Shown: piece by piece, positions 21,699-50,674 of the stretch
Layout of the letters: each line of letters opens with the position of its first letter
Position numbering within the stretch: position 1 is the stretch's first letter
Assembly (NCBI RefSeq): GCF_000517625.1
Contig: NZ_CP007056.1
Location: forward strand, 1 to 64,000
Direction: 5' to 3'
DNA from: Halostagnicola larsenii XH-48
GTDB taxonomy: Archaea; Halobacteriota; Halobacteria; Halobacteriales; Natrialbaceae
Length of the DNA stretch: 64,000 nucleotides
Program-made: the position numbers and the translations under genes
The notes under the pieces: model-generated
The model's input: only the letters and a program-made list of their open reading frames with translations
Told to the model about the DNA's origin: nothing
Database searches by the model: none

Positions 21699-22061
21699 CT
21701 ACTCAAGCTGCAGACTCGGACCGGCACTTGCCGAATCGCCGGCTCGAAGCGTGACGATGTCTCCGAATTCGACCGAATCCCCGCTCGAGACTGGGGGTCC
21801 ACGCACCTGTGCGATGAGGCGAATTCCGCCGTCGAACTGGACCAACGCGAGCCGGTTCGGCGCTCGCACGCCCGGCGGCGTGGCGTGAACCGTCGTCGTC
21901 GCCATCACCCGCCCCGTCTCGAGCGGGTACGTCTCGAACGCTGTCGATCCGCAGTCCGTACAGCGAGCGCGGGTGTAATACCAGCGGTTCGAGCACGATT
22001 CACATTCGAACGCTCGATCGATGCCGTCGCTTCCTGCCATCGGGTTTTTGATTTCAGTCAT
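21699..22061 (-). CDS. DUF35 OB-fold/zinc-ribbon protein, partner of thiolase-like enzyme
   Basis: This 120-residue protein has a rubredoxin-like zinc ribbon with Cys20, Cys23, Cys34 and Cys37, then a beta-rich OB fold (residues of about 45-115). DUF35 proteins bind acyl-CoA and form complexes with thiolase-superfamily enzymes, both acetyl-CoA acetyltransferases of the archaeal mevalonate pathway and steroid side-chain aldolases. Its ATG overlaps the thiolase-like stop (ATGA), so it should be a stoichiometric partner of that protein. Confidence 0.85.
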   Translation of the reverse strand: MTEIKNPMAGSDGIDRAFECESCSNRWYYTRARCTDCGSTAFETYPLETGRVMATTTVHATPPGVRAPNRLALVQFDGGIRLIAQVRGPPVSSGDSVEFGDIVTLRAGDSASAGPSLQLE

Positions 22062-23197
22062 GTGCTCTCTACGATCGTACAGATCGAATTGTTGCCGAAG
22101 CCGGCCACGTTGATCGCGAGTCCGGTCTCCGGATCCTCGAGCTGCCGGTCCGTTCCGGGCGCGTCGCCGCGTAGCTGCCAGACGAGTTCGATCACCTGCG
22201 AAATACCGGTCGCGCCGAGGGGGTGTCCGCGGGCCTTCAGCCCGCCGCCCGGATTGACCGGGAGCACCCCGTCGCGGTCCGTCTCTCCGGCCATGGTCGC
22301 CCGCCAGGCGTCGCCGCTGTCGTAGAAGCCCAACTCCTCGAGTTCGAGCAGCTCGAGGATCGTAAACGCGTCGTGGATGCACGCGACGTCGATGTCATCG
22401 TGTTCGACGCCGGCGCTCGTCATGGCGCGTTCGCCGGCTCGAGAAACGCTCTCGATCTCGAGCGGATCGGGCCGTTCGGCGACCGCGTGCGTTCCGGTCG
22501 CGCTCTCGATTCCGGACACCCGAACGTCGCCGTCGTCGGCCGACAGCACGACGGCGGCGGCCCCGTCGCTGGTCGGGCAGCAATCGTACAATCGAAGCGG
22601 CTCCGCGACGGGCGGGGACTCGAGGGCCTCGTCGACCGTGATCTCCTTTTGAAACTGCGCGTACGGATTCGCGGCCGCGTTCCGGTGGTTCTTGACCGCA
22701 ACCGCTGCGAGTCCGGCACGATCGGCGTCGTAGCGCTCGAGGTAGGCGTCTGCCGCCAGCCCGGCGAACGAGGGAAGCGTGATCCCCTGCTGGTACTCGC
22801 GGTCGTGTACGAGGCTGCTGATAACGTCCGTCGAAACCTCCCTGTCGACTGCGGACATCGTCTCGACGCCGACGACGAGCGCCGTCCGCGCTCGACCGGC
22901 GCAGATCGCATCGACCCCGCGAAGGAGCGCGCTCGCGCCGCTGGCGCTGGTGTTTTCGATTCGGTCCGCCATCGCGCCCTCGATCCCAAGCGCGCCACAG
23001 AGGGCGTTCTCGATTCCCGTTCGCCGATCGAACGCTTCGGCGGCCATGTTTCCGACGTGCACCGATTCGACGCCGTCGGGTTCGATGTCGGCATCGTCTA
23101 GGGCGGTCCAGGCGACGCGTTCGGCGAGATCCAGTGTGCTCGAGCCGCTGGCGCTTTCGAAGGGAACCATGCCGACGCCGCTGATGAAGACGTCCAT
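22058..23197 (-). CDS. Thiolase-like (SCP2-type) protein with Ser in place of the nucleophilic Cys
   Basis: This 379-residue thiolase-superfamily protein includes IHDAFT and GGGLKARGHPLGATGISQ in the C-terminal half. At the position of the usual nucleophilic cysteine (xxxCASG) it reads ENTSASG, with Ser84. The C-terminal CGG-type motif also differs (GFGNNSICTI). Classical Claisen chemistry through a cysteine acyl-enzyme is therefore unlikely. With a DUF35 partner, a retro-aldolase like Ltp2/ChsH2 or a non-catalytic CoA-binding role is possible. It lies between DUF35 and a CaiB/BaiF CoA-transferase, all cotranscribed. Confidence 0.85.
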   Translation of the reverse strand: MDVFISGVGMVPFESASGSSTLDLAERVAWTALDDADIEPDGVESVHVGNMAAEAFDRRTGIENALCGALGIEGAMADRIENTSASGASALLRGVDAICAGRARTALVVGVETMSAVDREVSTDVISSLVHDREYQQGITLPSFAGLAADAYLERYDADRAGLAAVAVKNHRNAAANPYAQFQKEITVDEALESPPVAEPLRLYDCCPTSDGAAAVVLSADDGDVRVSGIESATGTHAVAERPDPLEIESVSRAGERAMTSAGVEHDDIDVACIHDAFTILELLELEELGFYDSGDAWRATMAGETDRDGVLPVNPGGGLKARGHPLGATGISQVIELVWQLRGDAPGTDRQLEDPETGLAINVAGFGNNSICTIVEST

Positions 23198-23203: not shown

Positions 23204-24409
23204 TTATTCCCCACCGAACGCGCCGCGTTCCTCGAGGTCGTCCAGTTCATCCTCGTCGTAGCCCAGCGCCGCGAAGACGCTGCGGTTGTGCTCGCCGAGT
23301 TGGGGCGGCGGCGACTCGAACCCGCTGCTCGAGCGGTCGTACTTGAGTGGGTGCTCGATGACGGGAATCTCGCCGCGGTCGGGGTCCTCGATGGACGTAA
23401 CCGTCTCTCGGGCCTCGGTCTGTTCGTTGTAGAGTGCGTCTTCGGGCTCGAATACCGGCCCCGCGGGAATGCCGGCTTCCTCTACGAGGAGGACCATCCA
23501 CTCGTCGGTGGTCAGTTCGCGGAACGTCTCCTCGAGTTCCGCCTCGAGTTCGCCCATGTGCTCGACGCGGTCGGCGTTCGTTTCGAACCGCTCGTCCTCG
23601 AGGAGATCCGGTCGCTCGAGGGCCGCACAGAGACCCTTCCAGAGCTTCTGGTTGAGACAGGCGACGTTGATGTGGCCGTCGGCGGTCTCGAAGGTCTGGT
23701 ACGGCGCGAGGACGGGGTCTTTGGTCCCCATCCTCGAGGGCGATTCGCCGGCGAAGACCTTGCCGGCCTGTTTCGTCAGCCACGGCAACGTTGCGTCGAG
23801 CATACCGAGGTCGATGTACTCGCCCTCGCCGGTTCGCTCGCGACGATAGAGCGCGTTCGAGACGCCGAACGCGGCCCACATCGCGGTGATGAGGTCGGTC
23901 ATCGGGAGGCCGACCTTCACGGGCTTGCCGTCGGCTTCGCCGGTGACGCTCATGATGCCGCTCATCCCCTGAATCAACAGGTCGTAACCGGGGCGCTCCC
24001 GCCAGGGGCCGGTCTGGCCGAACGCCGAAATCGCACAGTAGATGATGTCGTCGTTGTGCGCGCGGATCGCGTCCTCGTCGACGTCGAGCCGTTCTGCGGT
24101 TCCCGGTCGATAGTTCTGGATGAAAACGTCCGCTTCGCTCGCGAGTTCGTAGAGCGCTTCTCGGCCCGCGTCGCTTTTCAGATCGAGTTCGACGCTCTTC
24201 TTGCCGTAGTTGACCGACCAGAAGTACGGCGACTCGCCGTCGACGAACGGCGGTCCGGAGTGGCGGTTGTCGTCGCCGACTTCGGGCCGTTCGACCTTGA
24301 TAACCTCCGCGCCCTGATTCGCGAGCATCAGCGAACAGAAGCCGCCGGTGACGAACGTCGTTAGATCGAGGACTCTCACGCCGTCTAAAATGCGATCGCT
24401 GCCAGTCAT
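23204..24409 (-). CDS. CaiB/BaiF family CoA-transferase
   Basis: This 401-residue class III CoA-transferase moves CoA between carboxylic acids in the cytoplasm through an aspartyl-CoA thioester. The catalytic aspartate is expected in EYIDLGMLDATLPW. Other family segments are NYRPGTAERL and YDLLIQGMSGIMSVTG. It sits six bases upstream of the thiolase-like gene on the same strand, so the three-gene set CoA-transferase, thiolase-like and DUF35 should activate a carboxylic acid and process its CoA ester. The acid is unknown. Confidence 0.9.
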   Translation of the reverse strand: MTGSDRILDGVRVLDLTTFVTGGFCSLMLANQGAEVIKVERPEVGDDNRHSGPPFVDGESPYFWSVNYGKKSVELDLKSDAGREALYELASEADVFIQNYRPGTAERLDVDEDAIRAHNDDIIYCAISAFGQTGPWRERPGYDLLIQGMSGIMSVTGEADGKPVKVGLPMTDLITAMWAAFGVSNALYRRERTGEGEYIDLGMLDATLPWLTKQAGKVFAGESPSRMGTKDPVLAPYQTFETADGHINVACLNQKLWKGLCAALERPDLLEDERFETNADRVEHMGELEAELEETFRELTTDEWMVLLVEEAGIPAGPVFEPEDALYNEQTEARETVTSIEDPDRGEIPVIEHPLKYDRSSSGFESPPPQLGEHNRSVFAALGYDEDELDDLEERGAFGGE

Positions 24410-24550: not shown

Positions 24551-25762
24551 CTACTCGAGGGTCGACGTTTGAACCACCGACACCCGTTCGCCGGCCGCGA
24601 TATCGCTCGTCGTCAGGACGAACCCGTCGGCCGTCGCCGCCCGCGTGCTCGAGGAGAGGACGCTCGGATCGAACGTGTCCTCGTAGACCGCGAGCGGGGA
24701 ATCGACGTGGCCGAGCGGGGTCGCCGTTCTGCCTTCGAGGGTGACCGGAATCGCGTACTCGAAGCCCTCGGGGCCGAGCCCGACGTCGTGGGTAAACTCT
24801 CGCTCGAGGGTCGGTAGCGTCTCCTCGCCGGTGAAAAGCACTCGAGCGACGAGCACCGCGCTGACGTACGCGCCGATCGGCTTTCCGGGAATCGCGACGG
24901 CCAGTGCGTCGTGGTCTGGCAACCGAGCCACGGCGATGGGCTTGCCGGGGCGGATTCGGACGCGGTGAAATTCCACGCTTCCGTGACTCGAGAGCGCGTC
25001 GATGACGTAATCCTTCGCGCCGACGCTGGTTCCGCCCGTGGTCACGACGATATCGTGTTCGCGAGCGAGTTCCGAAATCCGCTGCTCGACGCTGTCTCCC
25101 TCGTCGGGGACCGATTCCTCGTATACGGGGTCGTGGCCCCACGAACGCAGTAGATTACAGAGCATCGGCGAGTCGAGGTCGGTGTGTTTCCCCTCGTGAA
25201 TCTCGGTCCCGGTCGCGAGCACGCCGACGGAAAACGGCTCGAAACCCTCGAGGGTTTCGTAGCCGATGTCGCGGAGCAAGACCGCATCCAGCGCCGAGAG
25301 CCGGTCGCCGCGCTCGTAGAGCCGGTCGCCCGCTACGAGGTTCGACCCGCGTTCATAGACGTACGTTCCCGCCGGGAGCGACGGCGCGTCGAACGTTCCG
25401 TTCTCGACGACGACGTCTTCTTGCTTAACCACCGTGTCCGCCCGTTCGGGAAGCGGTGCGCCCGTCGCGATCTCGATCGCCTTTCCCCGCTCGATCGATG
25501 GCCGATCCGACTCGGGGAAGCTCGATTTCGAGACCACTTCGAGCGGGCCCTCGTCGTCCGACGCGTAGGCGTAGCCGTCCATCGTCGCCCGGTCGTCGGC
25601 GGGTCGATCGGCGGGCGCGCTGATCGGTTCGGCGAGGTGGCACCCGGCGAGGTCATCGACCGAGCGGGATCTCGTTGCACGCTCCTCGAGGAACGCTTCC
25701 CGGACGGCGAGCGTGCGGTCGACGGCCTCGCGTCTCCAGAGTAGATCGTCGTGGTCGTCCAT
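24551..25762 (-). CDS. moeA: Molybdopterin molybdenumtransferase MoeA
   Basis: This enzyme inserts molybdate or tungstate into adenylylated molybdopterin. The 403-residue protein carries DRATMDGYA, TGAPLPERADTVV, TTGGTSVGAKDYV and AIPGKPIGAYV, with a C-terminal domain IV. The ATG at 25762 gives the usual N-terminus; an upstream in-frame start would add 19 non-conserved residues. The window also encodes two pterin enzymes, an aldehyde:ferredoxin oxidoreductase and a molybdenum hydroxylase, which this copy may serve. Confidence 0.92.
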   Translation of the reverse strand: MDDHDDLLWRREAVDRTLAVREAFLEERATRSRSVDDLAGCHLAEPISAPADRPADDRATMDGYAYASDDEGPLEVVSKSSFPESDRPSIERGKAIEIATGAPLPERADTVVKQEDVVVENGTFDAPSLPAGTYVYERGSNLVAGDRLYERGDRLSALDAVLLRDIGYETLEGFEPFSVGVLATGTEIHEGKHTDLDSPMLCNLLRSWGHDPVYEESVPDEGDSVEQRISELAREHDIVVTTGGTSVGAKDYVIDALSSHGSVEFHRVRIRPGKPIAVARLPDHDALAVAIPGKPIGAYVSAVLVARVLFTGEETLPTLEREFTHDVGLGPEGFEYAIPVTLEGRTATPLGHVDSPLAVYEDTFDPSVLSSSTRAATADGFVLTTSDIAAGERVSVVQTSTLE

Positions 25763-25869
25763 GGCGGTTATCGTGGTCGAACCGAAAAAAGGGTAGCGAC
25801 GAACGGACCACAGCAACACAACCGTCCCCCGTCTCGAACTTGCTGTGGCGTCCCGAACTACCGAGGCGG

Positions 25870-27465
25870 TCAGTCGGCGCGGTCGACCGGCTTCGATCTG
25901 TCGTCCGAACCCAGTCGTTCGAAGAACGTGACGAAATCGTCTTCGTCCTCCGAGAGTTCGTCCCAGGCGTCGATACCGCGCTCTTCGGTCGTCCCTTCGA
26001 TGGTGTTGTCGAGGACGAACGCGATGATGCCCCCGATGGCCATTCCGGTGCCGAGGATGACGAACAACGTCTGTGCGACGAGTTCAGTTCCTAACACCGG
26101 GCCGAGGACGGCGACGCCCTCGAGTCCAGCCTGAAAGTCGGATACGGCGCCAACGTTGGCGATGTAGTTCGGAATTGCGAGTCCCGAGAACAGCGCGATG
26201 CCGACGATGAACACGTTGCGGTTCTTGTCGAGGTCGACGTACTTCAGGTTCGAGAGACCGACCGCGGTAATCTGCCCGAACATTGCGAGGAACAGCGCAC
26301 CGACGATCGGATTGGGAATGGTAGCGACCAGTTGGCCGAAGTAGCCGACGAAGCCGACGATCAGCATGACGATCGCCCCGATCTGGACGACGTATCGGGA
26401 AGCCACGCCGGTGATACCGATGGCGCCGACGTTCTCGGAGTACGACGTCGATCCGTTTCCGGTTCCCATGATCCCGGCGAAGAGATTGCCCAGACCTTCC
26501 ATGCCGATACCGTGATTGATGCGTTTCTTGCTGGGTGCGGCCATCCCCGACAGTCGAGCGACGGCGAAGTAATCGCCGTAGCTCTCGAGCATGGACGCGA
26601 CGACGCCGGCGAACATCCCGATGATGAACGACGTCGTGAACGTTGGTACTCCCCACTGGAACGGTGTGATCGGTTGAATGGCCGACGCCGAGGTAACGGT
26701 TCCGAAATCGATGAATCCGGCCGCACCGCTGCCGTAGACCCCAGCCACTGACAGCAGCGCAGCGATGAGCCATGCAGATCCGACTCCCAGCAGAATCGGG
26801 TAGAGGCGGAACACGCTGTGGTACTTATCGAGGTACTGCGAGAACGCGATGATCAGCACCAGGGTGAGCCCGAACAGCCACCAGTCCTGGCCCGCGCTCG
26901 TGATCTGTCCCGTATTGAACAGTGCGAGACCGATGAGGGCGATGGTCGGTGCGATGACCACGGGTGAGAGGAATCGCTTTAGCGTCCCCATCACTCCCAG
27001 GTATCCGATCACCACTTCTGCTAGCGCGGCAACGATGATCGCCCCCTGCAGTTCGCGTAACATCAGTTCGTATCCGACTCCTTGGGCGCCGAGGGCGGCG
27101 ATGATCGCCGTCGCGGGGGCGATCATCGAGAACGTCCCGCCCTGGACGATCGGATACCGATTACCGATCGTCGTCTGGGCGAGCGTCGCGATACCCGAGA
27201 CGACGAAGAAGGTGCCGATCAGTTGTGCCTGATCCGCCTCGGGCATACCGCCGCCCGCTGCCTGTATCGCTCCGATGAGCACCAACGGGATTGCGATGGT
27301 CGAACCGATCATCGTGAGGTAATGCTGGAACCCCAGGACGATCGACTGCAAAAGCGGCGGTTTGTCTTCGATGCTGTACTCGACGAAATCCGATTCCTCC
27401 GGCGGCGTCACGTTCCCCTCCGCTGCCGCGATGCCGTCGTCGGTCGGTGGATTGTTGTCTGTCAT
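25870..27465 (-). CDS. NCS2 nucleobase:cation symporter (uracil/xanthine permease)
   Basis: This 531-residue membrane carrier has about 14 hydrophobic segments. NCS2 features include YSIEDKPPLLQSIVLGFQHY near the N-terminus, IVQGGTFSM, and the substrate-site segment GLGNLFAGIMGTGNGSTSYS followed by ENVGAIGITGVASR. It imports uracil, xanthine or a related base. The gene is divergent from the hydantoinase across a 209-base region, so uptake and ring opening may be coordinately controlled. Confidence 0.9.
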   Translation of the reverse strand: MTDNNPPTDDGIAAAEGNVTPPEESDFVEYSIEDKPPLLQSIVLGFQHYLTMIGSTIAIPLVLIGAIQAAGGGMPEADQAQLIGTFFVVSGIATLAQTTIGNRYPIVQGGTFSMIAPATAIIAALGAQGVGYELMLRELQGAIIVAALAEVVIGYLGVMGTLKRFLSPVVIAPTIALIGLALFNTGQITSAGQDWWLFGLTLVLIIAFSQYLDKYHSVFRLYPILLGVGSAWLIAALLSVAGVYGSGAAGFIDFGTVTSASAIQPITPFQWGVPTFTTSFIIGMFAGVVASMLESYGDYFAVARLSGMAAPSKKRINHGIGMEGLGNLFAGIMGTGNGSTSYSENVGAIGITGVASRYVVQIGAIVMLIVGFVGYFGQLVATIPNPIVGALFLAMFGQITAVGLSNLKYVDLDKNRNVFIVGIALFSGLAIPNYIANVGAVSDFQAGLEGVAVLGPVLGTELVAQTLFVILGTGMAIGGIIAFVLDNTIEGTTEERGIDAWDELSEDEDDFVTFFERLGSDDRSKPVDRAD

Positions 27466-27654
27466 AACGTGTCTCTAATACTGCGTGTGAATCTCATCCG
27501 TGAACTGTACGCCTCATAATTCAAGGACTATTACTTAAGTCTATTGCAAGATAGGGGGTATGACCCATTCGAAAATTATGAAATTCATTGAATATGGGCC
27601 ATTGAATACGACAGATATTAGCCTATATCCGACCGAAACCTATATTTGTTATTT

Positions 27655-27672
27655 CCAATCACATATGATTGG
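27655..27672. promoter_or_regulatory. Palindromic operator at the hydantoinase start
   Basis: CCAATCACATATGATTGG has 7-base inverted arms around CATA. It lies 3 bases before the ATG and about 8 bases after a TATATTT box at 27641-27647, so it would cover the transcription start. Nearby, near-repeats of CATTGAATA occur at about 27592-27609. Confidence 0.45.
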
Positions 27673-27674
27673 AC

Positions 27675-29057
27675 ATGGTAGATACACTCATACGCGGTGG
27701 CACGGTTGTCACGGAAAGTGACACGTTCGAGGCCGACATCGGAATCACGGGCGAACGGATCGTTACCGTTGGGGACGAAACCGAGATGAGCGAGGCCGAG
27801 ACGGTTGTTGATGCAACGGACAAACTGGTTTTACCCGGCGTCGTCGACCCGCACGTCCACATCGACGACATGTTCTCGTTCGACACGTACGAGAGTGCCT
27901 CGAAAGCAGCAGCCCTCGGCGGCACGACCACCTTCATCGACTTCGCCTGGGAGGCCTGGGTCGGCGAAACAAGCCTGTGGGATGAGCCGGGAACGATTCT
28001 CGAGGGAATCGAACGAAAGCGCGACAAAGCGGAGAAGCCCGTCGTCGACTTCGGACTGCACGGCGCGATCACTCGAGAGGACGAGTCAGTCTTCGAGGAA
28101 ATCGAAGCCGTCATCGAGGCGGGCGTGCCGACGTTCAAGCTCTTTACCGCCTACGAGTTCGGACTGCGCAACGGCTTCATGGATCGGACGTTTCGCGAAC
28201 TCGCAGACCACGACGCGATCGCCGTCTTGCACTCCGAAGACGCCGACCTCCTCGATTACCTGGCCGACCGCTTCCAGGCGGAGGGGAAAGGTGATCCCGA
28301 GTGGTATCCTCGTTCCCGGCCCGATTACGCGGAAGCGATGGCAGCCGAAGACGCCGTCCGGATGGCGATGGAGGCGGGCTGTCGGTACTACGGAATCCAC
28401 ACGACCTGCCGGAAATCCGCCGAGGTGCTCGCACAGTACCGCGAAGCGTTCGGCGAGGAGATGGTTCGCGCGGAGACGTGTACCCATTACACCACGCTGG
28501 ACGACTCGATTTTCGAGGAGATGGGTCTCCTTCCGATGATCGCGCCGCCGATTCGGAAACCCGCTGACAACGACGCGATGTTCGAGCACTTAGCGCGCGG
28601 CACGCTGGACGTCGTCTCGACGGACCACTGTGGCTACACGAAAGAGAGCAAGCAGGTCGACAACTGGTGGGACAGCAAGTTCGGCGCGAACGCCCTCCAG
28701 ACCAGCCTCCCGGTCTTTCACGACGAAGCGATCAACGAGCGCGACTACTCGTACCCGTTTCTCGTCCGCACGATGTGTACGAACCCGGCTCGAGTGTTCG
28801 GCCTGTCCGAGAAGGGGACGCTCGAGCCGGGAACCGACGCCGACGTCCTCGTGTTCGATCCCGAGGCGACCTACACGATCACGGCCGAGGACAACGCGAG
28901 CGTCGCCGACTTCTCGATCTACGAGGGGCGGGAGGTCACCGGTCGCGTCGAAAAGACGTTCGTGCGAGGAGAGCTCGTGGCCGATGACGGCGAGATCGTC
29001 GGCGAGCCGGGACACGGACGGTTCGTCGAGCGCGACCTCCCCGACTGGGAGTTCTGA
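27675..29057 (+). CDS. Dihydropyrimidinase/hydantoinase family amidohydrolase
   Basis: This 460-residue cyclic-amide hydrolase opens rings such as dihydrouracil, hydantoin or allantoin to N-carbamoyl amino acids. The binuclear metal site is complete: His60 and His62 (DPHVHID), carboxylated Lys155 (TFKLFTAY), His186, His242 and Asp317 (STDHCGY). The ATG at 27675 lies just past the palindrome and is preferred over a TTG two codons upstream. It is convergent with an M20 N-carbamoyl amidohydrolase, its natural next step. Confidence 0.88.
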   Translation: MVDTLIRGGTVVTESDTFEADIGITGERIVTVGDETEMSEAETVVDATDKLVLPGVVDPHVHIDDMFSFDTYESASKAAALGGTTTFIDFAWEAWVGETSLWDEPGTILEGIERKRDKAEKPVVDFGLHGAITREDESVFEEIEAVIEAGVPTFKLFTAYEFGLRNGFMDRTFRELADHDAIAVLHSEDADLLDYLADRFQAEGKGDPEWYPRSRPDYAEAMAAEDAVRMAMEAGCRYYGIHTTCRKSAEVLAQYREAFGEEMVRAETCTHYTTLDDSIFEEMGLLPMIAPPIRKPADNDAMFEHLARGTLDVVSTDHCGYTKESKQVDNWWDSKFGANALQTSLPVFHDEAINERDYSYPFLVRTMCTNPARVFGLSEKGTLEPGTDADVLVFDPEATYTITAEDNASVADFSIYEGREVTGRVEKTFVRGELVADDGEIVGEPGHGRFVERDLPDWEF

Positions 29058-29134
29058 TCGGCGGTCCCAACGCTGGGAATCGAGAATTGCGACGGTACGG
29101 TGGGAGGGCTCTCGGTCGTCCGAATCGTTTCTGC

Positions 29135-30370
29135 TTATTCGTCGGTCGCGAGGCGGTAGGCCGCGTTGGCGATGGTGTTCGCCGCCGAGTAACAGTCGTC
29201 CCAGCTGGTGTATTCATCTTCGTTGTGGCTCTTGCCGTCCTCGCTCACCGCAAATACCATACTGGTGTCACAGATGTCGGTCAGATGGACGGCATCGTGG
29301 CCAGCACCGCTGAAGATGCGCATGCTGTCGTAGCCCAGATCGTCCGCAGATGCCTGGACGGCGTCGATACACGTGTCGGCGAACTCGACGCTGTCCGACT
29401 GGTGGCGTTGCTCCCACTCCCAGTCGAGCCCCTCGCGCTGTGCCGCTGTCTGCGCTTCGGCGAGAACCCGTTCTTTGGCCTCCGCGACGATCTCGTCGGA
29501 CGGGTCGCGGAACCCGAACGTGATCGTTACCTCCTCAGGGATGATGTTGATGGAGTTGGGCTGTGCGTCGACGTAGCCGACCGTCCCGACGGTTCGGTCG
29601 CCGAGCGTTCCTGGGATCCGCCGAACCTGAGTAATCACGTCCGCGGCCGCGACTAGCGCGTCGTTGCGATAGTGCATCGGCGTTGGCCCGGAGTGATCTG
29701 CCTCGCCGTAGAACGTGATCGCTCCCCAGTAGAAGCCGACGACGCCCGTGACGACGCCGACGTCTTTTTCCTCGAGTTCGAGGTACGGACCCTGCTCAAT
29801 GTGGAGCTCGAGGTACGCCTCGTAGTCGTTCTGTGGCTCGACCGGTATGTCCCCCCGGTAGCCGATACGCTCGAGTTCGTCACCCAACCGCTCGCCGTTC
29901 TCGTCGGTCCGGTCGTACTCCGCGTCGATGTCGTGGACTCCGGCCCAGACGCCGCTGCCTTGCATCGCCGGCTGGAAGCGCGATCCCTCCTCGTTGGTCC
30001 AGTTGACGATCTCGATCGGGTGCTCCGTGACCCTGCCTTCCTCCTCTAGGGTGCGGAGCAACTCGAGGGGTGCGATCACGCCGAGGGCTCCGTCGTAGAT
30101 CCCGCCGTAGGGCTGGGAGTCGAGGTGCGAACCGATCAGGATCGGATCGGCGTCGGGATCCGTTCCCTCGCGCCGAGCGAACATATTGCCGAACGCGTCG
30201 ACTCGGACCTCGAGGCCGAGCGCCTCGAGCTGATCGCGAAACCAGTCCCGAATCGCCTTGTCCTCGTCGGAGAGAGCCAGCCGGTGGAGTCCCCCGCCGT
30301 CGGTAGCGCCGATATCGGCCTGTTCCTTCATCGTTTCGATAAACCGCTCCCTGTCAATCTCGATCGACAT
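29135..30370 (-). CDS. M20 N-carbamoyl amino acid amidohydrolase (beta-ureidopropionase/allantoate type)
   Basis: This 411-residue zinc amidohydrolase of the hydantoinase/carbamoylase subfamily has GSHLDSQPYGGIYDGALGV, NEEGSRFQPAMQGSGVWAG, HIEQGPYLE and ADHSGPTPM. The family hydrolyses N-carbamoyl-beta-alanine, N-carbamoyl L-amino acids or allantoate, releasing ammonia and carbon dioxide or ureidoglycine. The ATG at 30370 lies about 25 bases after a TTAATATGT promoter element on the minus strand, giving a nearly leaderless message. Together with the hydantoinase it would turn a cyclic ureide into a free amino acid. Confidence 0.88.
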   Translation of the reverse strand: MSIEIDRERFIETMKEQADIGATDGGGLHRLALSDEDKAIRDWFRDQLEALGLEVRVDAFGNMFARREGTDPDADPILIGSHLDSQPYGGIYDGALGVIAPLELLRTLEEEGRVTEHPIEIVNWTNEEGSRFQPAMQGSGVWAGVHDIDAEYDRTDENGERLGDELERIGYRGDIPVEPQNDYEAYLELHIEQGPYLELEEKDVGVVTGVVGFYWGAITFYGEADHSGPTPMHYRNDALVAAADVITQVRRIPGTLGDRTVGTVGYVDAQPNSINIIPEEVTITFGFRDPSDEIVAEAKERVLAEAQTAAQREGLDWEWEQRHQSDSVEFADTCIDAVQASADDLGYDSMRIFSGAGHDAVHLTDICDTSMVFAVSEDGKSHNEDEYTSWDDCYSAANTIANAAYRLATDE

Positions 30371-30531
30371 ACGTCCACTGACAGTGCGACACATATTAAC
30401 TATTGTCCAGCCGTGGCTCTATTGTTGGATGTATATCCGCACACGCTCGGATTGTCGGATCTGATTGCGCTATTTCGGTCTCGAGTTGGATCGAGCCAAG
30501 CTATAAGTGGACGGGGAGGGTCCGGAGGTGC

Positions 30532-30906
30532 ATGCACGCCACCCACACTGCCGTCCAGGTGAGCGACCTCGAAGCGACCACCGCGTTCTACGAGGACGTT
30601 CTCGGCCTGTCGTACCAGCGAGAGTTCACGGGTGAGGACGGGGTCCGAAACTACTACGTCGGAACCGACGCTGGCGCGAGTCTCCAGTTCAAGTACGATC
30701 CAAACGGTGACGACGACGTCGAGCCGTCCGGAATCGACCACCTCGCGTTCGCGGTCGACGACGTCGACGCGACCTTCGAACGGGTCGTCGACGAATCGGG
30801 GTGTGACGTCTTCCTCGAGCCGACGACGTTCGACGCCGCGGACAGACGCGCGGGGTTCGTCTACGACCCGGACGGATACGTCGTGGAGTTCGTTCAGCCA
30901 GTCTGA
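30532..30906 (+). CDS. VOC (glyoxalase) superfamily protein
   Basis: This 124-residue single-domain vicinal-oxygen-chelate protein has the expected paired beta-alpha-beta modules. Metal ligands are suggested by HTAVQV at the N-terminus, GIDHLAFAVDD in the middle and GYVVEFVQPV at the end. This is lactoylglutathione-lyase-like, but the substrate is unknown. The start is well supported by a GCTATAAGT box at about 30500 and a GGAGGTG ribosome site at 30524-30530, the latter unusual among these mostly leaderless genes. Confidence 0.85.
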   Translation: MHATHTAVQVSDLEATTAFYEDVLGLSYQREFTGEDGVRNYYVGTDAGASLQFKYDPNGDDDVEPSGIDHLAFAVDDVDATFERVVDESGCDVFLEPTTFDAADRRAGFVYDPDGYVVEFVQPV

Positions 30907-30907
30907 G

Positions 30908-31399
30908 TTACTCCGTTACGTCGTCGGCGTCACGTAGCGTCTCCACCTCGTAGCCAGCGAACGAGTCGTAATCGTCTTTGATCGTCGAGATGACGAAGTT
31001 CGACATCGTCCGCTGGATGCCGTCGATGGCCTCGAACTGCGAGAACATTCGCTCGACCATGTCGCGGTCCGTGAGCCGGGAAATAACGACGAAGTCGACG
31101 TCCCCCATCGTGAAAAAGACCTGCTTGACGCCCTCGACCGCTCCGATCTGCTCGCCGACGCGGTTGTGGTACTCTTCGTCGTAGACCGCGATGACCTCCG
31201 AGATGACGGTGATCTCGAGGCCGGCCGCCGCCAGATCGAACTCGTAGAGGTCGTTTTTGATGATGCCCTGCTCGCGAAGCTTCTGTATCCGATAGTGGAC
31301 GGTCGACGTGGGAATGTCTGTCTCCTCGGAGATCCGCTCGGAGCTACTCGTCTCGAGTTCCGAGATGGCGATCAGGATTTGGGCATCGCGTTCGTCCAT
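30908..31399 (-). CDS. Lrp/AsnC family transcriptional regulator
   Basis: This 163-residue regulator has an N-terminal helix-turn-helix (residues of about 1-50, ISEETDIPTSTVHYRIQKLR) and a C-terminal ligand-binding RAM domain (ISEVIAVYDEEYHNRVGEQI). Such proteins sense amino acids. It lies in the middle of amino-acid and cyclic-amide catabolism genes and is a candidate controller of them, or of the TACACA-N5-TGTRTA sites (inference). In ectoine degraders a regulator of this family, DoeX, accompanies doeA. Confidence 0.9.
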   Translation of the reverse strand: MDERDAQILIAISELETSSSERISEETDIPTSTVHYRIQKLREQGIIKNDLYEFDLAAAGLEITVISEVIAVYDEEYHNRVGEQIGAVEGVKQVFFTMGDVDFVVISRLTDRDMVERMFSQFEAIDGIQRTMSNFVISTIKDDYDSFAGYEVETLRDADDVTE

Positions 31400-31544
31400 A
31401 CACCGAAAAGCGCGGGCCCCCCTCAAAGTCCTTGTGTCGGTCCGTCACTCGAGGGTTTGTCCCATCGGTCGCGAGCCAGATGACACGAGTTCGCCCGTCG
31501 TTTCGACCACAACAGTAACGGCGGTGACGGATCATGGTGTACTC

Positions 31545-31949
31545 GTGTCTACCGAAAACGCGCCAGACGGGGTCGACGCGACGAAGACGTTTGCCCTTCG
31601 CCGCGGCAACGCGCTCACGCTCGCGGACGACCACGTCTACGTCGACCGGGGGGACGATACGCCGATTCGCTTCGCCTTCGAGGATATCGTCGAAGTCCAG
31701 TACGATTCGTTCGATTGGTTTCTCGCCGTACTCAGCGTCATACTCGTGCTGTTCGGCGGCTATTCGACGACCGAGAACGTCCTCGGAGGGCTCGGATTCG
31801 CCGCCGCCGGCGTCGGTAGTTTCTACCTGACCTACCGAAAGCGCGGGAAACTCTCGTTCAACGTAACCGGGCGCTCGAAACCGCTCATCGTCTACCCCGA
31901 ACACTCCGAGGCCGCCTACGAGGCGTTCCGACCTCATATGTCGGAGTGA
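31545..31949 (+). CDS. Small membrane protein with PH-like N-terminal part
   Basis: This 134-residue protein starts with a beta-rich region resembling a bacterial PH domain (TLADDHVYVDRGDDTPIRFA, then FEDIVEVQYD). A hydrophobic hairpin follows (WFLAVLSVILVLFGGY and GGLGFAAAGVGSFYLTY), then a short cytoplasmic tail. Function is unknown. The start is uncertain: GTG at 31545 is used here, and an in-frame GTG at 31524 is also possible. Confidence 0.6.
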   Translation: MSTENAPDGVDATKTFALRRGNALTLADDHVYVDRGDDTPIRFAFEDIVEVQYDSFDWFLAVLSVILVLFGGYSTTENVLGGLGFAAAGVGSFYLTYRKRGKLSFNVTGRSKPLIVYPEHSEAAYEAFRPHMSE

Positions 31950-32220
31950 GAGACGGCGCTGTCTCGAGTCGCACTCTTGGTAGTCTCTCGCGACCATCAG
32001 TATTCTCGAGAACGATTCGCTCGAGCGTGTGCTCGCACAGTTGTATCGAGGGAGGTTTGGATAACGGAATTGGTTCTGTCCGCTCCCCAACGGGTTGGCG
32101 TCACCGGGTGGCCAAGATATTAGTTTTTCATATAGGCCAACTCCCTATTAGTTGGATTTCAACCAATGTTATGCGATATTATAGGAATAGCTTTTACCTT
32201 CGCGTTCCATGCGGGATGAT

Positions 32221-33549
32221 ATGGCTAGTGAGTCATCGACACTCAACGATGTCGAACGCACGGACAAACGGTACGTCTTCGGGACGTGGTCCTATCAGAG
32301 CGAGGTGAGTCCGACGCAGGTCGTCAGCGGCGACGGTGCCCGGTTCACGACGGCCGACGGCGAGGAGTACCTCGATCTCTCCGGGCAGTTGATGTGCTCG
32401 AACCTCGGCCACTCCGCGGATCGGGTCGCCGACGCGATCGCCGAACAGGCCAGCGAGGGCGCGTACTTCGCACCCGGGTACGCGACGGAAGCCAGGGCGA
32501 AACTCGGCGAGAAACTCGCCGAGGTGACGCCCGGTGACCTCTCCAAGACGTTCTTTTCGACGAGCGGCACGGAAGCCGTCGAGGCCGCCATCAAGATCGC
32601 CCGCTTCTATACGGGCAAGCAGAAGATCCTCTCGCGGTACCGCTCGTACCACGGCGCGACCTACGGTTCGATCAGCGTCACCGGTGATCCCCGCAGACTC
32701 GCGGCTGAACCCGGTATTCCAGGGACGATCAAAGCCCCAGATCCCTACGCCTACGGCTCGACGCTCGAGCCGATGGAGAGCATAGAGTACATCGACGAGA
32801 TGCTCGAACTCGAGGGCGACACCGTCGCGGCCGTCCTCGTCGAACCGATCGTGGGCTCTAACGGCATCCTCGTCCCGCCCGATGAGTACCTACCCAGGCT
32901 CAAGGAGATCGCTCACGATCACGGGGCCCTGCTCATCTGCGACGAGGTGATGGCCGGGTTCGGCCGCACCGGCGAGTGGTTCGGCTGTGATGTCTTCGAC
33001 GTCACCCCCGACATCATGACGATGGCAAAGGGACTGACCGGCGCCTACCAGCCCCTCGGGGCGACCATCGTCACCCCCGAGATCGCCGACCACTTCGAGG
33101 AGAACATGTTCTGTCACGGCCACACCTACGCCGGCCATCCCGTCGCCTGTGCGGCCGGCCTCGCTGCCATCGAGACCTACGAACGGGAGAACCTGATCGA
33201 ACGGGCCCGAGAGACCGGCGCTTACCTCGGCGACCGCCTCGAGGAACTCGGCGCGGACCACCCGAGCGTCGGCGAGGTTCGGGGCATCGGGATGTTCCGC
33301 GGCATCGAACTCACGAAGTCTCCCACCGAACGCGTTCCGTTCGGTCACCGCGAGGACAAGGTCTCGAAAGGGACTACCGTCGTCGATGAAGTCGCTGCTC
33401 GCGCCGCCGACGAGGGCGTTTACGTGGCGAACATGATCAACACGCTGATCATCGCGCCGCCGCTCGTGTTGACGACCGAGGAGGTCGACGAGGGGGTCGA
33501 CGCGCTGGACATCGCGCTCGAGCACGCCGACGGCGCGATGGAGGACTAA
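32221..33549 (+). CDS. Class III omega-aminotransferase
   Basis: This 442-residue PLP enzyme has Schiff-base Lys270 (MAKGLTGAYQPLGA), the STSGTEAVEAAIKIAR cofactor loop and CDEVMAGFGRTGEW. The sequence is of the beta-alanine/taurine:pyruvate type. It should convert an omega-amino acid into a semialdehyde. A TATTATAGG box about 30-45 bases upstream gives a very short leader; an ATG at 32209 is also in frame. The next gene, an aldehyde:ferredoxin oxidoreductase, begins three bases after its stop, so the aldehyde product is probably handed to that enzyme. Confidence 0.88.
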   Translation: MASESSTLNDVERTDKRYVFGTWSYQSEVSPTQVVSGDGARFTTADGEEYLDLSGQLMCSNLGHSADRVADAIAEQASEGAYFAPGYATEARAKLGEKLAEVTPGDLSKTFFSTSGTEAVEAAIKIARFYTGKQKILSRYRSYHGATYGSISVTGDPRRLAAEPGIPGTIKAPDPYAYGSTLEPMESIEYIDEMLELEGDTVAAVLVEPIVGSNGILVPPDEYLPRLKEIAHDHGALLICDEVMAGFGRTGEWFGCDVFDVTPDIMTMAKGLTGAYQPLGATIVTPEIADHFEENMFCHGHTYAGHPVACAAGLAAIETYERENLIERARETGAYLGDRLEELGADHPSVGEVRGIGMFRGIELTKSPTERVPFGHREDKVSKGTTVVDEVAARAADEGVYVANMINTLIIAPPLVLTTEEVDEGVDALDIALEHADGAMED

Positions 33550-33552
33550 CGG

Positions 33553-35406
33553 ATGAGCGACCTGCCATCGACGTACGGTGGGGAGATCCTCCACGTCTAC
33601 CTCGATAGCGGCGAGACCGAACGCGAGGAACTCGCGCTCGAGGACGCACGGCTGTTCCTCGGCGGCAACGGGCTCGCCGTCGAACTCGTCGCCGACCGCG
33701 TCCCGCCGTCGGCCGACCCGTTCGACGCGGACAACGTCGTCGTCTTCGCCGTCGGGCCGATGAACGCCACCCCGTTTCAGAGCACGAGCCGCGGGGTCGT
33801 CGGCTTCGTCAGTCCGATGACCAACGGCTTCTTCGACAGCACGTTCGGCGGGACGTTCCCGCGGGCCCAGAAGACGACGGGGTTCGAAGCCATCGCGTTA
33901 CACGGAGCCGCCGACGAACTCTCGTACGTGCGTATCACCGAGGACGGCGCGTCCGTCGAACCCGCTGTGGACCTTGCTGGCCAGGGAACCTACGAGACCT
34001 GCGAGGCGGTTCGCGAACGCGAGGGCGTCGGCTACGACACCCACGTCATCGCCGCCGGGCCGGCCGGCGAGAACCAGGTGCGCTACGCCTGCCTGTTACA
34101 CGAGTCAGAGCGTCGCGAGGGCGTCGCCGGTCGGGGCGGCAGCGGAGCGGTACTGGGATCGAAGAACGTCAAAGCCGTCGCGATCCGTGAGGGTGAGTTC
34201 GAACCCGAACTCGCGGACGCCGACGGCCTCCGAAAACTCGCGACGGGGCGGATGAAGCCGTTGATGGAGGGGACCGAGATGCTTCAGGAGTACGGAACCA
34301 GCGGGCTCGTGAACCCGATAAACGAGATGGGAAAGCTCGGCCAGCACAACAACCGCTACGAGCAAACGACCCCGGAGAACGCCGAAGCGATAAGCGGCGA
34401 GCGCTTTCGAGAGGAGTTCGTCACCGAGGACACCACCTGTGCTAACTGCGCGGTCGCCTGCGGCAAGCATATCGCCGTCCAGTCGGCGGGAATCACCGAG
34501 GCGAAGATCCCCGAGTTCGAGAGCCTCTTCGGGACTGCCACGATGCAGGAGGTCTACGACGTCAAACGCGTCATGGAGGCGAACGACCTCTGTGACCGGC
34601 TGGGGATGGACACCATCAGCTGGGGCGTGACCGTCGCGTTCGCCCGGGAGTGCTACGAGGAGGGACTGCTTCCCGAAGACGCGTCCCCCCACCTCGAGTT
34701 CGGTGACGCCGAGGGGCTCGTCGAACTCGCGAAACTGACCGCGCGGCGCGAGGGCATCGGCGACCGCCTCGCCGCGGGATCGTTCCGGCTCGCCGAATCA
34801 CTCGACGCCGAGGAGGCGACGCGGTACCTCCACGGCGCGAAGGGGCTCGAGTTCGCGGCTCACTCCCCGCGCGGTCTCAAGGGGATGGCGATCGGGTACG
34901 CAACCTCGACGCGGGGCGGCTCGCACCACGATACGCGTCCGACCCTCCAGTATCAGGCGGAACACGACGAGACGACCGACGGGACCGCCGAGTTCGCCGC
35001 CCGCTCCCAACACTTCACCGCCGTCGGCGACTCGCTGACCCAGTGTCGGTTCGTCAGCGAAGGCGGCTGGGGAGAGCGGCTTAACGAACGCTACGCGGAG
35101 GCCGTGCAGTATGCGACCGGGTGGGACCTCGACGTCGACGACATCGAACGCATCGGCGAGCGAATCTACAACCTTGAACGGCTCGTCAACGTCCAGCGGG
35201 GGATCGCGGGCCGCGAGGACGATACGCTCCCCTACCGCGTCATGCACGAGGCGATTCCGGACGGACCGGCCGCCGGGATGTTCTGTCCGCCCGAGGAACT
35301 CGAGGCCATGCTCGAGGAGTACTACGCGTTCCGCGGCTGGGACGACGACGGCCGCCCGACCGACGAGACGCTTGAGCGCCTCGACCTCGAGCGGTTCGCT
35401 GCCTGA
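33553..35406 (+). CDS. Tungsten-type aldehyde:ferredoxin oxidoreductase
   Basis: This 617-residue AOR-family enzyme oxidises an aldehyde to a carboxylate, passing electrons to ferredoxin through a bis-pterin tungsten (or molybdenum) site and a 4Fe-4S cluster. Three cluster cysteines are in CANCAVAC (296, 299, 303). The fourth is probably Cys498 in DSLTQC, where most relatives have DxxGLC. The pterin-binding stretch GRGGSGAVLGSKNVKAVA is intact. Immediate coupling to an omega-aminotransferase suggests a semialdehyde, such as malonate semialdehyde, as substrate (inference). Confidence 0.88.
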   Translation: MSDLPSTYGGEILHVYLDSGETEREELALEDARLFLGGNGLAVELVADRVPPSADPFDADNVVVFAVGPMNATPFQSTSRGVVGFVSPMTNGFFDSTFGGTFPRAQKTTGFEAIALHGAADELSYVRITEDGASVEPAVDLAGQGTYETCEAVREREGVGYDTHVIAAGPAGENQVRYACLLHESERREGVAGRGGSGAVLGSKNVKAVAIREGEFEPELADADGLRKLATGRMKPLMEGTEMLQEYGTSGLVNPINEMGKLGQHNNRYEQTTPENAEAISGERFREEFVTEDTTCANCAVACGKHIAVQSAGITEAKIPEFESLFGTATMQEVYDVKRVMEANDLCDRLGMDTISWGVTVAFARECYEEGLLPEDASPHLEFGDAEGLVELAKLTARREGIGDRLAAGSFRLAESLDAEEATRYLHGAKGLEFAAHSPRGLKGMAIGYATSTRGGSHHDTRPTLQYQAEHDETTDGTAEFAARSQHFTAVGDSLTQCRFVSEGGWGERLNERYAEAVQYATGWDLDVDDIERIGERIYNLERLVNVQRGIAGREDDTLPYRVMHEAIPDGPAAGMFCPPEELEAMLEEYYAFRGWDDDGRPTDETLERLDLERFAA

Positions 35407-35575: not shown

Positions 35576-37462
35576 ATGGTTTCCGATCCGGAGTACGCGG
35601 TCCACGCCGAGTTGAACGTACAGGTCGAAACGCGCGATGGAATACACCTCGCGACCGATATCTACCGTCCCGCAGACCCGGAGACGGGTGAGCCGATCGA
35701 CGAACCGAAGCCGGTCCTGCTCGACCGGACGCCCTACGGCAAGCGCGGGCGCATGGAACGACACGGCGAGTGGTACGCCAAACGCGGCTACGTCGTCGCG
35801 ATACAGGACTGTCGCGGCCGCTTCGACAGCGAGGGCGAGTACTACATCTTCAAGAACGAACCCGAAGACGGCTACGACGCCGTCGAGTGGCTCGCCGAAC
35901 GACCCTACTGCGACGGGCAGGTCGGCACCTTCGGCACCTCCTACGGCGCGTGGGTCCAGAGCGCGCTCGCGACCCAGGACCCGCCCCACCTCGAGGCCAT
36001 GTTCGTCAATCAGGGCGCGGCGAACGGCCGAAAGGCGACGTTCCGACACAACGGCGCGTTCGAACTGCGTTGGCTCGCCTGGGCCTTTACCCTCGGCGGC
36101 GGGTTCGCCAAACGCGCGCTCGAGAACGAGGACGTCCAGCAGCGTCTGGCCAACGTCGACGTCGGCGACGTCCTCGAGAACGGCCCGGTTCAGCGCGGAC
36201 AGTCGCCGCTGCGGCACATCCCCGACTACGAGGAGTGGGCCTTCGACATCATGACGCAGGGAAGCGCCAGCGACGACCTCTGGCAGGAACCTGGCTTTAA
36301 CTTCGAGGCGTTCTACGACGAGTCGGCCGACGTGCCTACCGTCTACTCGGGCGCGTGGTACGACTCCTACACGAAGGCGACCTGTGACAACTTCGAGGCG
36401 CTGGCCGAGCGCAAGGACAGCGACCACTACCTGCTGATGGGGCCCTGGACCCACGGCTGGAACACGTATCCGCTGCCCTCCTGGAACAAGTCCTACTCGG
36501 GAGAACTCGAGTTCGGCGAGGCGGCCCTGCGGGACTACCAGGAGACCAGGCTGCGATTCTTCGATCACTACCTCAAGGGCGAAGACACCTGGTCGGACCA
36601 GCCGACGGTCCAGTACTTCGAGATGGGGACTGGCGACGGCTCCCGGTCCGGCGACCGACTCTTCCACGGCGGCGAGTGGCGCTCGGCGTCGGCGTGGCCG
36701 CTCCCCGATACCGAGTTCGAGACCTATTACGTCCACGGCGACGGGACGCTCTCGACGGAGCAGCCGACCGCAGAGAACGATTCGACCACCTACGAGTTCG
36801 ACCCCAAAGACCCTGTCCCGACGCTCGGCGGCAACTGTTCGTCGTACATCACCTACGAGCAACGCGAGGAGAACATCCTCGAGTATCCACTCGCCCAGCG
36901 CAAACTGCAGGACCTCACCGGTCGAGGCGGCTACGATCAACGGACCCGGCCCGACACGCTCGGAGCCGACGAACCCTACGGCCCGCTCGAGCAGCGAAGC
37001 GACGTGCTGGTCTATCGCACCTCGCCGCTCGAGGAGGCGGTCGAGGTTACGGGCCCGATCAACGTAACCGTCTACGGGTCGACCGACGCGCCGGACACCG
37101 ACTTCACGGCGAAGCTGATCGACGAGTATCCGGCAAGCGAGGACTTCCCCAACGGCTTCGCGGTCAACGTCTCGGACTCGATCTGTCGCGGCCGGTATCG
37201 CGGCTACCGCGACGAACCGGACTTCCTCGAGGCCGGCGAGGTTTACGCGTTCGAGATGGAGCCGTACCCGACGTCGACCGTCTTCGAGGAAGGCCACCGG
37301 ATCCGGCTCGATATCTCCTCGTCGAACTACCCGCGCTTCGACGTGAACCACAACACGGGCGGTCCGCTCTACGGCGACCGCGAGTACAACGTGGCGACCA
37401 ACACGGTCCACCACGACAGCGAGTACGCGACGCGGATCGAACTGCCGGTCCAGCCGCGGTAA
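35576..37462 (+). CDS. CocE/NonD family alpha/beta hydrolase (S15-like)
   Basis: This 628-residue hydrolase has the S15/CocE fold. The serine nucleophile is in GTFGTSYGAW, the aspartate probably in YSGAWYDSYTK and the histidine in MGPWTHGWN. A C-terminal jelly-roll domain follows (RPDTLG onward, ending with IRLDISSSNYPRF). Members cleave esters or amides such as cocaine, glutaryl-cephalosporin acids or Xaa-Pro peptides. No signal peptide is seen, so it should be cytoplasmic. The substrate is unknown; context suggests an amide or ester feeding the same catabolic island. Confidence 0.88.
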   Translation: MVSDPEYAVHAELNVQVETRDGIHLATDIYRPADPETGEPIDEPKPVLLDRTPYGKRGRMERHGEWYAKRGYVVAIQDCRGRFDSEGEYYIFKNEPEDGYDAVEWLAERPYCDGQVGTFGTSYGAWVQSALATQDPPHLEAMFVNQGAANGRKATFRHNGAFELRWLAWAFTLGGGFAKRALENEDVQQRLANVDVGDVLENGPVQRGQSPLRHIPDYEEWAFDIMTQGSASDDLWQEPGFNFEAFYDESADVPTVYSGAWYDSYTKATCDNFEALAERKDSDHYLLMGPWTHGWNTYPLPSWNKSYSGELEFGEAALRDYQETRLRFFDHYLKGEDTWSDQPTVQYFEMGTGDGSRSGDRLFHGGEWRSASAWPLPDTEFETYYVHGDGTLSTEQPTAENDSTTYEFDPKDPVPTLGGNCSSYITYEQREENILEYPLAQRKLQDLTGRGGYDQRTRPDTLGADEPYGPLEQRSDVLVYRTSPLEEAVEVTGPINVTVYGSTDAPDTDFTAKLIDEYPASEDFPNGFAVNVSDSICRGRYRGYRDEPDFLEAGEVYAFEMEPYPTSTVFEEGHRIRLDISSSNYPRFDVNHNTGGPLYGDREYNVATNTVHHDSEYATRIELPVQPR

Positions 37463-43267: not shown

Positions 43268-43419
43268 GGTACATGACAGCTCACCCCGAGATAATGAATG
43301 TTTTGGACAACTGACCAAGGCTTCGTGGCATAATTTCTGATATGCGAATGATTTCCGCCAAGCGGTTCTGGCCTGGCACCCACGGAACTATTATCGGGGT
43401 GGGCGACAGTCGTAGGGAC

Positions 43420-44718: not shown

Positions 44719-44776
44719 CGGGCAATTCTGCGGTCGGTGGGTTACTCGCGATAAAACGTGAAAAGCGGTCGGTCCC

Positions 44777-45535
44777 TTATTTGAACGCGACGCAGCGACA
44801 GACGCTCGACTCGCCGCCGCGGAAGCGCCACGGGAAGGTACCAATCTGGACGCGCTCGTTGAGCAGTTCCTCGGGGACCTGCGCGTTCTCGACGTGGATG
44901 ATTCCCTCCGGGAACAGCTCGTTGTGCATGAGCTGATAGCCCTCCGGCGGGAAGATCTCGTCTAAGTCGTCGACGCCGAGGGCGTCTTCGGCTTCCGACG
45001 CGAGGTCGGGACGGATGTCGCGGATGATCGTGTTCATCGGGTGGTCCGCGCTTCCGCAGTCGAGAAGGAGGTAGTTGATCTCCATCTCCTTACACCAGTC
45101 GGCGAACTCCTGGTTCGGGCCGGGGTGCTTGCTGAAGAATCGGTCCGGATTGGCGTTTTCCTTGTGCCAGGCGTACTCCTGATAGCCCGTGTGGATGAAC
45201 AGGATGTCGCCTTTCTGGACGTCACAGACGTCTTCGATCATCTCGCTCGTGTAGACGTCGTAGTCGCCGACCTTGTCCGAGATGTCCGCGACGACCGCGT
45301 CGCCGACGAGTTCGTCCAGACCCACCTGCTCGATGTCCCGGCCGCTGGCGACGAAGTGTTTCTCCCCGTCTAGGTGCGTCCCGGTGTGGTTCATGAACTC
45401 GATTTTCTGTCCGTTGACTTTCTCGGTATCGAGGCTCTTCTCGTACCACACCTTCGGATTGTCGTACGTGGGCCACGCAGGCGTATCCTGTGACCATGGC
45501 TGTGTCAGATCGTACATTTCATAGCCGTCTAGCAT
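44777..45535 (-). CDS. Cyclase-family (kynurenine formamidase-like) metal hydrolase
   Basis: This 252-residue protein has the signature NHTGTHLDGEKHF, giving metal ligands His50, His54 and Asp56, and the family start YDLTQPWSQDTPAWP. The family includes arylformamidase and isatin hydrolase, which hydrolyse amide bonds of cyclic or N-formyl compounds. Its place between a deaminase and a molybdenum hydroxylase suggests hydrolysis of a nucleobase-derived intermediate. ATG 45535 is used; ATG 45517 (MYDLTQ) is equally possible. Confidence 0.82.
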   Translation of the reverse strand: MLDGYEMYDLTQPWSQDTPAWPTYDNPKVWYEKSLDTEKVNGQKIEFMNHTGTHLDGEKHFVASGRDIEQVGLDELVGDAVVADISDKVGDYDVYTSEMIEDVCDVQKGDILFIHTGYQEYAWHKENANPDRFFSKHPGPNQEFADWCKEMEINYLLLDCGSADHPMNTIIRDIRPDLASEAEDALGVDDLDEIFPPEGYQLMHNELFPEGIIHVENAQVPEELLNERVQIGTFPWRFRGGESSVCRCVAFK

Positions 45536-46811: not shown

Positions 46812-46859
46812 TCGTCACACCACTACCAACCAACTACCGTCGCAGCATACCAATCACAC

Positions 46860-47378: not shown

Positions 47379-47548
47379 TCGAGAGCACCGTTTTCCACCG
47401 CCGGAGTTCCGTACTTCACTCAGTCTGCGCTGGTCACCCGAGAATGACCCGTGGTGTGTTGCGCGCGTAGACGCTTCTTGAGCAGTGTGGTGGATTCGTC
47501 GAACGAAAACGGAGATCGAACCGGTTACTCGAAGTTCCAAACGGCCGA

Positions 47549-50023: not shown

Positions 50024-50026
50024 GCG

Positions 50027-50533: not shown

Positions 50534-50674
50534 GTGATAGTTACACTAACCCGTGACCGAGGCATAAGCGTTGTGTTGCCAACGGACGATTTTCACCCCC
50601 ACGAACGCTCGTCACACCGTCGATTGTACCGACTGATCGGGTACACTCAAGTAGGATGAGCTACGTGTATTCGT

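Follow-up and report, generated by a model that had tools for sequence, protein, structure and literature searches.

A predicted tungsten aldehyde oxidoreductase in the place of MmsA: a proposed variant of cyclic-ureide catabolism in haloarchaea

The closest described counterpart of the system considered here comes from Haloferax volcanii, in which dpyS, amaB2 and the divergently oriented genes mmsA and gabT6 are all upregulated on alanine, and for which a breakdown of uracil through beta-alanine has been proposed (PMC6801745). We analyzed a stretch of 64,000 nucleotides (the window) from Halostagnicola larsenii XH-48 (Halobacteriales; Natrialbaceae), namely the first 64 kb of the 574-kb contig NZ_CP007056.1 in a genome of 4.13 Mb and five contigs, which codes for the same set of dihydropyrimidinase, carbamoylase and omega-aminotransferase, again with a suggestion of Lrp-type regulation. 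Most relatives of this locus share the divergent arrangement of the aminotransferase (AT) and mmsA. In the window, however, a predicted tungsten aldehyde oxidoreductase of the AOR family stands for mmsA, and a CoA-transferase is added; the AT is a putative counterpart of GabT6. The MmsA version of the pathway was already proposed in H. volcanii (PMC6801745), and the AOR version is what differs.

With the Pyd pathway the locus shares the predicted ring opening, decarbamoylation and transamination to a semialdehyde, but the last oxidation would be carried out by a tungsten AOR yielding a free acid, not by a dehydrogenase, and no classical dihydropyrimidine dehydrogenase was found in the source genome. 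Although MmsA/IolA (TIGR01722) and AOR belong to unrelated families, they are predicted for the same step at the same genomic position: MmsA yields a CoA ester, CO2 and NADH, whereas an AOR yields the free acid and reduced ferredoxin. We consider it probable (roughly 0.6), from sequence comparisons, that the locus specifies a variant of reductive pyrimidine or cyclic-ureide catabolism in which AOR takes the place of MmsA to give a free acid, followed by CoA transfer.

Alternation of AOR and MmsA beside the aminotransferase

We searched 392 haloarchaeal genomes of the order with the AOR, the AT and an MmsA from locus L137 (G and L numbers are our labels for genomes and loci), and found AOR in 28, AT in 63 (65 copies) and MmsA in 107. 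MmsA directly adjoins 46 of the 65 AT copies, 45 of them divergently across a gap of 186-251 bp; AOR directly adjoins six, and none has both as direct neighbours (Fisher 3e-4). Four of the six AT-AOR pairs lie on the same strand with AOR 6-11 bp downstream, as measured between the matched stretches. The remaining two (G040 and G057) are divergent with a gap of 255-264 bp, which is nearly the place and orientation of MmsA. In G040, AOR lies between AT and an MmsA gene 2.6 kb away, an arrangement that might resemble an intermediate state of the swap. The MmsA partner scores over the TIGR01722 cut-off, and the gene beside the AT of Natrialba magadii is annotated as a CoA-acylating methylmalonate-semialdehyde dehydrogenase.

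The same relationship is seen across whole genomes: at a cut-off of 1e-190, MmsA is absent from 11 of the 15 genomes with both AT and AOR, compared to 1 of the 48 AT genomes lacking AOR (Fisher 2.5e-8), and AT is enriched among AOR genomes (15/28, odds ratio 7.6, P 2e-6). Neither the window nor the matching islands L166-L168 contain an MmsA-like gene; AOR occupies its place. Further, the swap is recurrent. On the AT tree, at least three separate changes are needed for the AOR-adjacent label among the MmsA-linked ATs, the AT-linked AORs sit in separate AOR lineages, and two genera (g2 and g13) have MmsA in some species and AOR in others. As the arrangement recurs in other genera, it is not a product of chance.

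Genes for AT, hydantoinase and carbamoylase commonly lie close together in genomes of the order, mostly in the company of MmsA, and orthologous ATs (77-86% identical) are paired both with MmsA and with hydantoinase and carbamoylase. Carbamoylase lies within 9 kb of all six AT-AOR pairs and hydantoinase within 6 kb of four, the other two genomes having hydantoinase elsewhere. Thus, the possibility raised in the first-pass annotation that the pair occurs mostly without hydantoinase genes is not what we found, with four of the six carrying hydantoinase and carbamoylase. Its proposal that AOR replaces the usual semialdehyde dehydrogenase gains strong comparative backing from the alternation of AOR and MmsA at the same spot beside AT and from its independent recurrence; it had overlooked the MmsA counterpart itself, as well as the CoA-transferase and the larger conserved island. 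Taken together, these patterns make AOR for MmsA a credible and recurrent, though putative, enzyme replacement in a known pathway.

Enzymes of the locus and the predicted route

The NCS2 permease, hydantoinase, carbamoylase, AT and AOR are all present as first described, full length and without internal stops, with 3 bp between the AT stop (33549) and the AOR start (33553). Since the strands alternate, a single operon is ruled out, and co-transcription is possible only for AT and AOR, perhaps along with the CocE-like gene that follows (Table 1).

The AOR carries both domains of the family (PF02730, E 4.7e-60; PF01314, E 3.2e-114). Its best solved relative is the Pyrococcus furiosus AOR 1aor (331 bits), and the H. 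volcanii tungsten aldehyde oxidoreductase WOR83 (9q1t) is among the nearest. It shares with these the cluster cysteines and the catalytic Glu and His: the equivalents of P. furiosus C288/C291/C295/C494, which we take to be 4Fe-4S cluster ligands, and of E313 and H448, presumably catalytic, are kept, and all six positions are conserved in all covered members of 39 haloarchaeal sequences. Its clade differs from them in a shortened loop and an invariant signature, SHHDTRPT, after the catalytic His. The source genome has six AOR-family genes (L001-L006), the other five of which are only 34-38% identical to the AT-linked copy. Residues marking the AT-linked AORs off from the others were also sought; as just one weak position separates them, there is no specificity marker. 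The open-access literature yielded no paper on an AOR oxidising malonate semialdehyde and none on H. volcanii WOR83.

The upstream enzymes belong, by sequence affinity, to the dihydropyrimidinase, beta-ureidopropionase and beta-alanine aminotransferase families, which are present together; the corresponding specificities are predicted. The hydantoinase scores 322.8 bits with TIGR02033 (cut-off 393) against 288.7 with the allantoinase model, falling under the curated cut-off of both; among solved structures it is closest to D-hydantoinases and dihydropyrimidinases, and it has the metal-site motifs (HxH in DPHVHID at 60, K in TFKLFTAYE at 155 and D in STDHCG at 317). The carbamoylase matches N-carbamoyl-beta-alanine amidohydrolase 8c46 with 305 bits and beta-alanine synthase 1r3n with 270, compared to 179 for allantoate amidohydrolase. 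With both enzymes scoring lower for the allantoin-degrading families, membership in that pathway appears improbable. The AT has the pyridoxal-phosphate-lysine motif MAKGLTG at 272, and its nearest solved chain is the taurine:2-oxoglutarate aminotransferase 6jix.

In the proposed route, the hydantoinase/dihydropyrimidinase would open the ring of a dihydropyrimidine (likely) or a similar cyclic ureide, and the carbamoylase would strip the carbamoyl group to leave a beta-amino acid, beta-alanine or beta-aminoisobutyrate. With a keto acid as acceptor of the amino group, AT would then produce malonate or methylmalonate semialdehyde. Where MmsA is the neighbour, as in most haloarchaea that have AT, it would use CoA and NAD to convert this semialdehyde to acetyl- or propionyl-CoA and CO2; here, the tungsten enzyme would instead produce free malonate or methylmalonate, with the electrons probably going to ferredoxin, the acceptor expected from the family. 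The family III CoA-transferase of the island would probably form the CoA ester of the free acid. The early steps are assigned from family membership and the H. volcanii work (PMC6801745), and the AOR step from the replacement pattern.

The CoA-transfer step is the weakest part of this route. The CoA-transferase, a candidate for activating the acid made by AOR, is 83-86% identical to its counterparts in the matching islands of four further genomes, and among named families it is closest to those with dicarboxylates as substrates (succinate-glutarate, mesaconate and oxalate). A relative with at least 64% identity is present in 15 of 15 AT+AOR genomes compared to 11 of 25 with AT and MmsA (P 3e-4).

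Few AOR-family enzymes have a known physiological substrate, even though haloarchaeal genomes may hold several copies, and the repeated one-for-one swap with MmsA gives one AOR clade a specific candidate substrate that can be tested. If the proposal is right, haloarchaea have a tungsten enzyme doing the work of a textbook dehydrogenase, and carbon and electrons from the breakdown of pyrimidines and beta-alanine take another course. More tentatively, and with somewhat less than even confidence, we suggest that in haloarchaea the last part of beta-amino-acid catabolism has been remodelled more than once around a tungsten enzyme, with ferredoxin-linked oxidation to a free dicarboxylate and activation by a CoA-transferase, such that carbon might leave as malonyl- or methylmalonyl-CoA rather than as acetyl- or propionyl-CoA, and low-potential electrons be conserved. 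No such rebuilt route was found in the open-access literature that we searched.

The first-pass annotation reported no dihydropyrimidine dehydrogenase in the window, and the same appears true genome-wide, where we found one full-length match to the DHO_dh family (PF01180) on contig 4, which is probably pyrD, and two short weak matches. The substrate may enter already reduced, so that a complete reductive pyrimidine pathway is not claimed. In many MmsA-type loci, a luciferase-like F420-type oxidoreductase (PF00296, nearest to Mer-type models) adjoins the carbamoylase (L134 at 7416-8453, L135, L136, L139, L145, L152 and L153). It is a candidate F420-dependent pyrimidine reductase or oxygenase, and a luciferase-family gene of H. 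volcanii, HVO_A0295A, is listed among the co-regulated genes (PMC6801745). As a ring reductase for the present locus it was rejected, the source genome having no ortholog. A cytosine permease and a cytosine deaminase at 41.9-44.7 kb, missing from some of the islands, suggest pyrimidine input.

Counterevidence and alternative substrates

Several observations weigh against the proposed route. Since the genome counts share kinship, we also tested the genome-level association as independent pairs on the AT tree, which left about eight pairs, of which about five were for and none against (median P 0.06). The source genome itself keeps an MmsA-type gene on contig 3 (G000:C3:156423), which is 58% identical and, at 1e-179, fell just under the 1e-190 cut-off. 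This copy refutes the simple absence of MmsA from the genome, and could act in trans; like copies in other genomes would be missed in the same way. AOR also has a life apart from AT: 13 of the 28 AOR genomes lack this AT, AOR is directly followed by an iron-containing alcohol dehydrogenase in L030, L031, L032 and L036 (and is near one in L141), and Natrialba swarupiae and Halobacterium bonnevillei have hydantoinase, carbamoylase and AOR without AT beside them. Hence, the AOR substrate may be broader, and a strict AT-AOR unit is ruled out by the loci with hydantoinase-carbamoylase but without AT (L026/L171 and L037) and by AORs in unrelated neighbourhoods. As for the CoA-transferase, its association was sought post hoc, with the 64% cut-off picked after seeing the data; the difference is lost at 70% identity (P 0.19), and most of the distant copies are located elsewhere in the genome. 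Finally, our search of the genome for PF01180 members and for an ortholog of the F420/luciferase-like gene identified no ring-reducing enzyme.

These same contexts would fit an AOR that oxidises aldehydes in general, or some other aldehyde, and hitch-hiked into a catabolic island rich in Mo/W enzymes, with the semialdehyde left to the MmsA copy on contig 3 or to a further aldehyde dehydrogenase; the genome has 13 genes of the aldehyde-dehydrogenase family and one MmsA-type copy. We regard this as unlikely, as it leaves unexplained the alternation of AOR and MmsA beside AT, the loss of MmsA in AT+AOR genomes and the recurrence on the AT tree. The island also houses a xanthine dehydrogenase-like Mo-hydroxylase (46-50.5 kb), a second hydantoinase-like gene and xanthine/uracil permeases, and a purine pathway with such genes has been speculatively proposed for H. 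volcanii (PMC8305020). These points speak for a purine ureide route, in which the hydantoinase would be an allantoinase and the carbamoylase an allantoate amidohydrolase, both tied to the Mo-hydroxylase, with AT and AOR acting on a glyoxylate-like product. Nevertheless, the hydantoinase model outscores the allantoinase model, the carbamoylase is closer to beta-ureidopropionases, and MmsA, the usual partner of AT, suits beta-amino acids rather than ureidoglycolate, making such a route, judged by these genes, quite improbable. Least credible is that AT converts taurine to sulfoacetaldehyde and AOR oxidises this to sulfoacetate, a reading prompted by 6jix being the nearest solved relative of AT: orthologous ATs pair with the (methyl)malonate-semialdehyde enzyme, hydantoinase and carbamoylase. 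Taurine aminotransferases often accept beta-alanine.

The conserved island and neighbouring genes

Most of the window between 22 and 55 kb is also found in G389, G264, G229 (Natronorubrum halalkaliphilum) and G220 (Natrialba swarupiae), and comprises the CoA-transferase, permeases, hydantoinase, carbamoylase, AOR, CocE-like hydrolase, a cyclase, the Mo-hydroxylase with the second hydantoinase and an IclR regulator. Halobacterium bonnevillei (L037) carries a part of it. In G220, AT is missing from its position in the island and is found elsewhere in the genome, beside MmsA.

Table 1. Predicted genes around the AT-AOR pair in the window, and a second aminotransferase of Haladaptatus-type loci.
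Feature	Coordinates	Strand	Evidence and context
Thiolase-domain protein	22058..23197	-	PF00108/PF22691; PRK06064 subfamily; kept beside the CoA-transferase in L227, L230
Family III CoA-transferase	23204..24409	-	PF02515 E 7.6e-127; NF052585 E 2.9e-91, under that model's cut-off
MoeA-like molybdenum/tungsten cofactor insertion protein	24551..25819	-	NCBIfam MoeA-type matches; kept in place in L227, L228
NCS2 purine/pyrimidine permease	25870..27465	-	PF00860 E 2.8e-72; passes NF037981 cut-off
Hydantoinase/dihydropyrimidinase	27669..29057	+	TIGR02033 top model
M20-family N-carbamoyl-amino-acid hydrolase (carbamoylase; beta-ureidopropionase-like)	29135..30364	-	TIGR01879 over cut-off
VOC/glyoxalase-fold protein	30523..30906	+	PF00903; adjoins or near AOR in L166, L167, L168, L170, L037, L208
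Lrp/AsnC-type regulator	30908..31426	-	PF01037, PF13412
Class-III omega-aminotransferase (AT), predicted beta-alanine/beta-amino acid type	32209..33549	+	PF00202 E 5e-98
AOR-family tungsten aldehyde oxidoreductase	33553..35406	+	PF02730 + PF01314
CocE/NonD (S15) family hydrolase	35576..37462	+	TIGR00976 over cut-off; 67-87% identity in L166, L167, L168, L171, L037
Second class-III aminotransferase	L134:13089-14522, L135:4979-6292, L146:4810-6195		

Between the carbamoylase and AT lie the VOC protein, the Lrp-type regulator and one protein without a family match. The regulator gene adjoins AT in many loci, including those of the MmsA type. The VOC protein was considered as a methylmalonyl-CoA epimerase and rejected, as its score of 31.7 bits falls short of the cut-off (115). 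The gene downstream of the thiolase-domain protein we take to code for a putative DUF35/OB-fold-like protein.

A second block of the window (43342-55000), largely common to G389, G264 and G229, codes for a cytosine-deaminase-like enzyme, a cyclase (PF04199), the Mo-hydroxylase (FAD, CoxG, large and 2Fe-2S components), the second hydantoinase, MobA-like and XdhC-like proteins and the IclR regulator; its substrate is possibly a further N-heterocycle or a purine. The neighbourhood of the contig-3 MmsA-type gene (G000:C3:146001-166000, L225) includes a thiamine-dependent enzyme and, as named by eye, an IclR regulator, an ABC sugar transporter and Gfo/Idh-like and enolase-like proteins, so that this copy apparently belongs to a sugar-acid or inositol-like pathway.

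Among the loci in which an AOR of the same clade accompanies an iron-containing alcohol dehydrogenase, L031 and L032 have a 93-aa MoaD/ThiS-like protein (named by eye) between the two genes, and in Halorientalis marina (L036) a CoA-transferase lies about 30 bp ahead of AOR. The combination of AOR, alcohol dehydrogenase and CoA-transferase suggests a route from alcohol through aldehyde and acid to a CoA ester. In Haladaptatus-type loci, the second class-III aminotransferase (38% in L134) lies beside the AT-MmsA pair together with an SSS-type transporter and an M20 peptidase-like gene, which are perhaps involved in the uptake and processing of beta-amino-acid derivatives.

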